Positions 35,576-37,794 of a stretch of 56,651 bases of DNA are shown here, piece by piece. Each line of letters opens with the position of its first letter. Position 1 is the first letter of the stretch. Under the pieces are notes generated by a model that saw only the letters and a list, made by a program, of their open reading frames with translations, searched no databases and had not been told where the DNA came from. The DNA comes from Acidimicrobiales bacterium. Its GTDB lineage: Bacteria; Actinomycetota; Acidimicrobiia; Acidimicrobiales; UBA8190. The stretch covers positions 1 to 56,651 of the forward strand of contig DATKSK010000017.1 of assembly GCA_035531755.1 (NCBI GenBank), written 5' to 3'. The translations under genes and the position numbers were made by a program.

Positions 35576-35722
35576 CCACAGGGTGAGACTTCCGTCTCCC
35601 GGCGGGCCCGTCAAGGACCGCGGCCCGTCTCGGGCACCGACCCGAGCCGCCCAACCTGCGGGGAGAGCGAGCGCTGGGCCAAGCTGCACCCACGTGTCGC
35701 CGGACGACAGAAGGGGAACGCC

Positions 35723-36163
35723 GTGGGAGTCACGCTCTCGCACCTGGGGATCTGCGTGTCCGACCTCGACCGGTCGGTCCGGTTCTACTGCGACGGGCTC
35801 GGGTTCGAGCTCGTGCAGTCGCACACCGTGGGTGACGAATTCGGGCGGCTCATGGAGCTCGAGGACGTCGTCCTCCAGTCGCGCTTCGTCCGCCGCGACG
35901 GGGTGAGCGTGGAGCTGCTGCACTTCGACTCGCCCGGGACATCGGGCGAGCCGGTGCGCCGGCCGATGAACCAGCTCGGGATCACCCACCTGTCGCTGCG
36001 GGTCGACGACCTCGACGACGTGGCCGCCACCATCGAGTCCTTCGGGGGGACGGTGCTCACGGGCACCCGCACCACCTTCGGGTCGACCGACGCCTCCCTC
36101 GACTTCGTCTACTGCACCGACCCCGACGGCGTGCGCATCGAGTTGATGCGCCTACCCGGCTGA
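35723..36163 (+). CDS. VOC/glyoxalase family protein
   Basis: A 146-residue complete VOC domain. LSHLGICVSDLDRSVRFYCDGLGFELV is a standard first module (metal His in SHLG), with Glu in SVELLHF and Glu in IELMRLP as the other ligands, and GITHLSLRVDDLDDVAATIE opens the second module. It resembles methylmalonyl-CoA epimerase and dioxygenase-like members, without enough detail to choose. GAAGGGG lies before the GTG at 35723. The stop codon forms the first bases of the 29-bp repeat array. Confidence 0.88.
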   Translation: MGVTLSHLGICVSDLDRSVRFYCDGLGFELVQSHTVGDEFGRLMELEDVVLQSRFVRRDGVSVELLHFDSPGTSGEPVRRPMNQLGITHLSLRVDDLDDVAATIESFGGTVLTGTRTTFGSTDASLDFVYCTDPDGVRIELMRLPG

Positions 36164-36276
36164 CGCCGGCGCGTGGGCTACGGTCCGGCCGACTCCGGCG
36201 CGTGGGCTACGGTCCGGCTGACGCCGGCGCGTGGGCTACGGTCCGGCTGACGCCGGCGCGTGGGCTACGGTCCGGC
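36161..36276. repeat. Four tandem 29-bp repeats carrying a -10 box each
   Basis: Units at 36161-36189, 36190-36218, 36219-36247 and 36248-36276; the third and fourth are identical and the second differs at a few bases. Each includes GGGCTACGGTCCGGC. The array links the stop of the VOC gene to the start of the next gene. Confidence 0.9.
36265..36270 (+). promoter_or_regulatory. -10 box in the last repeat unit, before the NTF2-like gene
   Basis: TACGGT, 8 nt before the ATG at 36279. The same hexamer occurs in the three preceding repeat units (about 36178, 36207 and 36236). Confidence 0.4.
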
Positions 36277-36278
36277 CG

Positions 36279-36746
36279 ATGACCACAGCGGACGACGGAC
36301 AGAGCGCGCGCGTCATCGAGAACCTGATCGCGCGGTACGCCGAGCTCGTGGACGGCGGCGACTTCGGGGGGTTGGGGTCGCTGCTCGCCGATGCCCACTT
36401 CGGGGGGGAGGGCGACAACGTCGTCGCCGGCCGCGAAGCCATCGAGAAGACCTTCCGGGCCATGGTCCGCACGTACGAGGACGGCACACCCCGTACCAAG
36501 CACGTGACCACCAACATCATCGTCGAGGTGGACGACGACGCAGGGTCGGCGACCTCCCGTTCGTACGTCACGGTGTTCCAGGCGCTGCCCGGCCTGCCGC
36601 TCCAGCCCATCGTGGCGGGCCGCTACCGCGACCGGTTCGAGCGTCGCGACGGTCGGTGGCGATTCGTGGAGCGGCGTTTCACCACGGACCTCGTCGGGGA
36701 CGTGAGCCGTCACCTCCGCGTCGGGCCGGAGATCCTCAACAGGTAG
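36279..36746 (+). CDS. NTF2/SnoaL-like protein
   Basis: A 155-residue NTF2-fold protein of the SnoaL_4 group: VIENLIARYAELVDGGDFG, then LADAHFGGEGD, TKHVTTNIIVEVD and YRDRFERRDGRWRFVERR. It could be a small isomerase, dehydratase or ring-hydroxylating beta-subunit-like protein. The ATG at 36279 directly follows the repeat array. In-frame GTG codons in the last two repeats (for example 36231) would add repeat-encoded residues (GYGPADAGAW) and are judged less likely. Confidence 0.82.
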   Translation: MTTADDGQSARVIENLIARYAELVDGGDFGGLGSLLADAHFGGEGDNVVAGREAIEKTFRAMVRTYEDGTPRTKHVTTNIIVEVDDDAGSATSRSYVTVFQALPGLPLQPIVAGRYRDRFERRDGRWRFVERRFTTDLVGDVSRHLRVGPEILNR

Positions 36747-36806
36747 CACATAGTGAGATAGCCACTACGGAATGTGTTTGTGCTTCGCCGGCACCGCCTT
36801 CACTCC

Positions 36807-36812
36807 TACCAT
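36807..36812 (+). promoter_or_regulatory. -10 box of membrane protein gene (leaderless type)
   Basis: TACCAT, 7 nt before the ATG at 36820. Confidence 0.45.
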
Positions 36813-36819
36813 TGACACC

Positions 36820-37794
36820 ATGCAGAGCGTGCGGATCGCTACGGACCGGGGCACGCGTACGGGCGTGAGGCTCGCCAGCGTCTGGGTCGTCGACGGAGAG
36901 CCCGGCGACAAGAGCGAGGCCGTCGGTGCCTTCGACCTCCGGGTGGAGCCGGGGGGCTGGACGCTCACCGACCCGGCGGTGCCCGGTGTCGAGCGCCAAT
37001 GGCCGTGGGACGACATCGGCGGGCTCACGCTGGCGGGCGCGGCCGAGACGCCCGACGGCAGGGGTGGCACGTCCCTGGAAGTCATCGTGAACGGTTGGCC
37101 CGTCCACCTGGTGGTTCCCACCGACGAGTTCCCGGGCCCCGGGGTGCGGTCGCTGGCGGCGCTCGCCCCGCCGGGCCATGTCCTCGACGGGCTCGGTGAC
37201 GACACCGCCGCACCCGACCCCGTCTCCTCCCGACGCGGCTCGCCTTCCCGGGGTGCGGCGCTGTCCATCGCCGTCATGGTCGCCGCCACCGTGGGTGGAG
37301 CGGTGCTGGCGAGCACCTCCGGAGCGGCCCCGGGGCCGTCGGGTGGTGGGAGCACCCAGCCCGCCACACCCGCGGGCACGCCCCGGGTCACGACGCCCAC
37401 GCCCCGGGTCACGACGTCCACGCAACCGTGGATCCCTCGCCCGGCAGGTTCGGCGGACATCGCACCCACGCCGGCACCCACGGCGATCGGATCGAGCCTG
37501 TCCTCCGTGACCGGTCTGGCACGGGACCTGGGCGCACCACGGGCCCCCGACACGACGAGGGCCCACCAGGCCGGCACGGCGCGGGGCGGGGGATCGTCCT
37601 CGCGTGGCGCGTCGTCGGTGCACGGGTCGGCGCGCTCCGCTGTCGCCGACCCGTCGGCCGCACGCCCGGCGTCCGCGCATCCGCCTGCTGTCCCGGGGAC
37701 CACGTCGCCGGCCGGGACCGCGCTCCCGCTCCCGCTGCGCCCGGGCCCCGGCCCCGGCTCCGGCCCCGGAGCCTGGGGTTGGAGGCGCGCCTGA
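36820..37794 (+). CDS. Hypothetical single-pass membrane protein with Pro/Thr/Ser-rich tail
   Basis: A 324-residue protein. Residues 1-125 form a soluble beta-rich domain (WVVDGEPGDKSEAVG, WPWDDIGGLTLAGAAE, PVHLVVPTDEFPGPG) reminiscent of PH-like modules. One membrane segment lies at about 145-165 (GAALSIAVMVAATVGGAVLA). The remaining 155 residues are disordered and Pro/Thr/Ser/Gly-rich with short repeats (TPRVTTPTPRVTTSTQP). The N-terminal domain is probably cytosolic and the tail outside. No family assigned. The ATG at 36820 is preferred to one 48 nt upstream because of the -10 spacing. Confidence 0.6.
   Translation: MQSVRIATDRGTRTGVRLASVWVVDGEPGDKSEAVGAFDLRVEPGGWTLTDPAVPGVERQWPWDDIGGLTLAGAAETPDGRGGTSLEVIVNGWPVHLVVPTDEFPGPGVRSLAALAPPGHVLDGLGDDTAAPDPVSSRRGSPSRGAALSIAVMVAATVGGAVLASTSGAAPGPSGGGSTQPATPAGTPRVTTPTPRVTTSTQPWIPRPAGSADIAPTPAPTAIGSSLSSVTGLARDLGAPRAPDTTRAHQAGTARGGGSSSRGASSVHGSARSAVADPSAARPASAHPPAVPGTTSPAGTALPLPLRPGPGPGSGPGAWGWRRA

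Follow-up and report, generated by a model that had tools for sequence, protein, structure and literature searches.

A four-copy 29-bp tandem repeat with a probable leaderless promoter box upstream of a SnoaL-like gene in an Acidimicrobiales genome

The 29-bp array between the VOC and SnoaL_4 genes

The window of 56,651 nt analyzed here is one entire contig of a metagenome-assembled Acidimicrobiales genome (3.28 Mb, 77 contigs, 73% G+C). On its forward strand, a gene of the VOC/glyoxalase superfamily is followed by a gene for an NTF2-like protein with a SnoaL_4 domain. The VOC gene starts with GTG and has the purine-rich sequence AAGGGGA ahead of it. No Shine-Dalgarno-like match was present before the ATG of the SnoaL_4 gene, the best match being 3 nt long. 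A scan of positions 35600-36900 revealed neither classical sigma-70 promoters nor terminators, and no terminator-like site separates the two genes. The features of the locus are as follows.

35723-36163, + strand: VOC/glyoxalase-superfamily gene, upstream (PF00903, 6.1e-19)
36156-36163, + strand: left flank microhomology CCGGCTGA, the end of the VOC gene including its stop
36161-36189, + strand: repeat unit 1, opening with the VOC gene's TGA stop; TACGGT at 36179-36184
36190-36218, + strand: repeat unit 2, with two differences in its first five bases; TACGGT at 36208-36213
36192, + strand: predicted transcription start of unit 1, derived from the N7 spacing; 87-nt leader
36219-36247, + strand: repeat unit 3, containing the sole in-frame GTG (36231); TACGGT at 36237-36242
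36221, + strand: predicted transcription start of unit 2; 58-nt leader
36248-36276, + strand: repeat unit 4; TACGGT at 36266-36271, N7 to ATG, spaced as in a leaderless promoter
36250, + strand: predicted transcription start of unit 3; 29-nt leader
36272-36279, + strand: right flank microhomology CCGGCCGA, extending into the ATG
36279-36746, + strand: SnoaL_4 (NTF2-like) gene, 155 aa, predicted to be leaderless (PF13577, 4.6e-22)

The first-pass annotation had described four tandem 29-bp repeats at 36161-36276 with TACGGT at the same position in each, and both statements were confirmed by Tandem Repeats Finder and by comparison of the units. The program reported an array at 36156-36276 (period 29, 4.2 copies, 95% matches, score 228), which is the top-scoring tandem repeat in the window and ranks 13th when all repeats with a period between 15 and 100 are compared across the 2.56 Mb of genome sequence that was read. 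The four units stand head to tail on the + strand, and the repeated unit is the intergenic spacer from the stop of the VOC gene to the start of the SnoaL_4 gene. Units 1, 3, and 4 are identical, while unit 2 departs from them at two of the first five positions (cgact vs. tgacg). TACGGT occurs exactly once per unit (starting at 36179, 36208, 36237, and 36266), giving four occurrences in the array versus an expectation for TANNNT of about 0.03 per 116 nt in the window. The last copy had been placed 8 nt before the ATG; the distance is 7 nt from the end of the last TACGGT (36271) and 2 nt from the end of the array. An assembly artefact would be compatible with the window being one contig of a 77-contig assembly. 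However, a typical read is longer than the 121-bp array, and unit 2 has differences of its own that would not arise from a false expansion. We consider an artefact extremely unlikely.

The repeats might also act at the level of translation, by extending the protein or by encoding short peptides coupled to the gene. GTG codons do occur in the array, as had been noted before, and the one at 36231 opens an in-frame extension of 16 residues, while the frame of the GTG at 36202 ends in a TGA that overlaps the ATG. However, of the four GTG codons only the one at 36231 shares the reading frame of the gene, and it lacks a Shine-Dalgarno sequence; the period of 29 is not a multiple of 3, so that the frame shifts with each unit, and the SnoaL_4 domain lies entirely inside the 155-aa form. 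The earlier suggestion that the protein could be extended through GTG codons did not hold up against these observations, and a translational device is hardly credible.

TACGGT as the -10 box of a leaderless promoter

In actinobacteria, a TANNNT motif located some 12 bp upstream of the start codon is the typical signature of leaderless genes (PMC3160421; PMC3898074). Without relying on gene calls, we scanned both strands of 2.56 Mb (78% of the genome) and counted every TANNNT that had a start codon 0-30 nt after it. At N6, N7, and N8, there were 84, 93, and 64 cases ahead of ATG (background 16, sd 5.6) and 116, 118, and 73 ahead of GTG (background 40, sd 6.8). The signal was strong before both codons, and no peak was seen before TTG, CTG, or ACG in the same count. 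The lack of a peak before TTG suggests that leaderless genes of this Acidimicrobiales genome do not start with TTG.

The sequence before the SnoaL_4 gene has the same properties: TACGGT-N7-ATG (36266-36281), no Shine-Dalgarno sequence, and a box that is kept in orthologues. An A is found at N7 after TACGGT in every unit, and the A of unit 4 is the A of the ATG. The statement of the first-pass annotation that each repeat carries a promoter -10 box is backed by the genome-wide peak at N6-N8 before ATG and GTG and by the box at N7 in the orthologues. The promoter reading is well supported, and it is very probable that TACGGT represents a true -10 box. The locus resembles known actinobacterial leaderless genes in the position of its TANNNT, about 12 bp ahead of the start, in the lack of a Shine-Dalgarno sequence, and in needing no -35 region; it differs from them in carrying four tandem boxes.

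Single boxes in relatives and origin of the four copies

The VOC and SnoaL genes are adjacent in three genomes of the same family, and each has one box only. A fourth orthologue also has a single box, and in all four the box stands at N7 before the start.

G011/L010: single box, TGAgcgtccggcTACGGTcacggagGTG
G005/L009 (reversed): single box, TGAggggagggcTACGGTcacgaccGTG
G002/L011: single box, gTACCGTcggcgccATG
G004/L012: single box, TACGGTcggggtgGTG; VOC gene not found adjoining

Parsimony makes the single copy ancestral and the four copies a derived feature of this lineage. That the units are nearly identical is consistent with a recent expansion. A single-copy spacer would read CCGGCTGAcgccggcgcgtgggcTACGGTCCGGCCGATG, flanked by CCGGCTGA and CCGGCCGA. 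Mispairing of these near-identical octamers could lead to duplication of exactly 29 bp. CCGGCCGA is still present where unit 1 meets unit 2, which would be expected if the first duplication went through the right-hand octamer. From these sequence features, we infer that the array probably originated by replication slippage. In the reading that we favor as probable, the SnoaL/NTF2-like gene has an ordinary leaderless promoter (-10 only), the stop-to-start unit of which was amplified to four copies by slippage.

We found 168 distinct arrays with a score of at least 100 in 2.56 Mb of the genome, and the periods of 119 of them were divisible by 3, as expected within genes. Two of the 168 arrays contained the TANNNT of a promoter-start site, versus a mean of 2.9 after random placement. 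Overlap of arrays and promoters was at the chance level in this array-rich genome, and the location of the 29-bp array therefore needs no selection. In the same 2.56 Mb, it was the only array found in which the TANNNT box itself is repeated beside a start. Other strong tandem arrays of the genome are located at L150:12483-12642 (54 bp, 3 copies), L179:14535-14684 (27 bp, 5.6 copies), and L177:15818-16092 (18 bp, 15 copies).

A search of plasmid DNA returned only SnoaL-like genes with 60-80% identity and no array. In the L027:1911 region (G018, reverse strand), the sequence ccctacggtccggccGTG, which is close to the 29-bp unit, lies just before a SnoaL-like gene, with TACGGT at N6. This gene is more distant and belongs to another family of the order.

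Possible effects of the additional copies

What we infer about the activity of each copy and its effect on expression is as follows. Unit 4 would drive a leaderless mRNA beginning at the A of the ATG. Units 1-3 share its -10 box, probably initiate some mRNAs with leaders of 87, 58, and 29 nt that lack a Shine-Dalgarno sequence, and may slightly raise transcription. A point against the favored reading is that these three boxes, repeated every 29 bp, might be just as functional as the last one. The predicted fold of the array transcript is somewhat more stable than those of shuffled sequences (z -2.64). Since the mRNAs from units 1-3 would combine this stable fold with the lack of a Shine-Dalgarno sequence, the extra transcripts may add little protein. 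More RNA from the extra copies is plausible; more protein is less certain. Each added unit would fall downstream of the VOC stop and upstream of the SnoaL promoter and start; as both proteins would remain unchanged, the copy number could drift almost neutrally.

Tandem repeats in promoters are known from Mycobacterium tuberculosis, where repeats (VNTRs) of 54-58 bp by lpdA-glpD2, cysG-efpA, and dop vary in copy number (PMC12817950). These are the closest known counterparts: they also consist of near-identical head-to-tail copies in a high-GC actinobacterium and lie no more than about 30 bp from the gene start, those of lpdA and cysG beside leaderless promoters (PMC12817950). The copies described here likewise stand in tandem at or within a promoter. 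The array is real and mostly ordinary, and its arrangement is of an already known sort. Differences are seen in the unit, which measures 29 bp instead of 54-58 bp and includes the -10 box, reaching from stop to start, whereas the lpdA and cysG repeats are described as upstream of the leaderless promoter. The genes are unrelated, and variation in copy number was shown for the M. tuberculosis repeats, while here the array of one genome was read. No report of such an array outside mycobacteria was found in the literature searched.

In line with the phase- or level-setting device suggested by the first-pass annotation, the number of promoters could vary in the population and set the expression of the SnoaL-like gene, as has been proposed for the M. 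tuberculosis repeats. Every unit holds an identical -10 box with an A at the predicted start, and in M. tuberculosis a second lpdA copy raised biofilm formation (PMC12817950). However, one copy suffices in relatives, chance alone would let arrays coincide with promoters in this genome, and the mRNAs from units 1-3 may add little protein, as described above. We regard such a control by copy number as unlikely, though worth considering. More doubtful still is the specific version in which the stop-to-start leaderless promoter expands in 29-bp steps as a heritable and reversible rheostat, yielding one leaderless and n leadered mRNAs with mixed translation modes. If copy number does set the output, promoter-repeat phase variation would extend from mycobacteria to uncultured Acidimicrobiales, and leaderless promoters would be small enough for amplification as a whole. 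As it stands, the array mainly illustrates how easily -10-only promoters can be duplicated by slippage while the neighboring proteins remain undamaged.

The array might instead multiply the binding site of a putative dimeric repressor, given the imperfect 25-bp palindrome formed by the unit (GCCGGcgCGTgGgCtACGgtCCGGC, 9 of 12 pairs). A near-copy at C53:1586, with 3 of 25 positions changed, forms a better dyad (10 of 12 pairs, counted by eye) and shows the same TACGGT-N7-ATG. However, this is the only other site with at most four differences in 2.19 Mb, and by our own estimate a 9/12 dyad is not rare in DNA of 73% G+C (about 5% per unit). The dyad is not kept in the orthologues, and conservation of the palindrome was found neither across the orthologous promoters nor in a regulon. 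A regulon/operator motif was rejected because matches in 98 relatives were no commoner than with the reversed control pattern. An operator array is therefore very improbable; the dyad symmetry of the unit and the near-copy leave room for a possible regulator site.

Elsewhere in the genome the array unit was absent; the search yielded one near-copy, the one at C53, and a match in coding sequence at C65 that is attributed to chance. The near-copy (L138:1586-1615, C53 of G000) reads GCCGGACCGTGGGCTACGGTCCTGCGGATG, with 22 of 25 bases as in the unit, and is present once. It precedes a CrtI/phytoene-desaturase-like gene, which has orthologues in the family.
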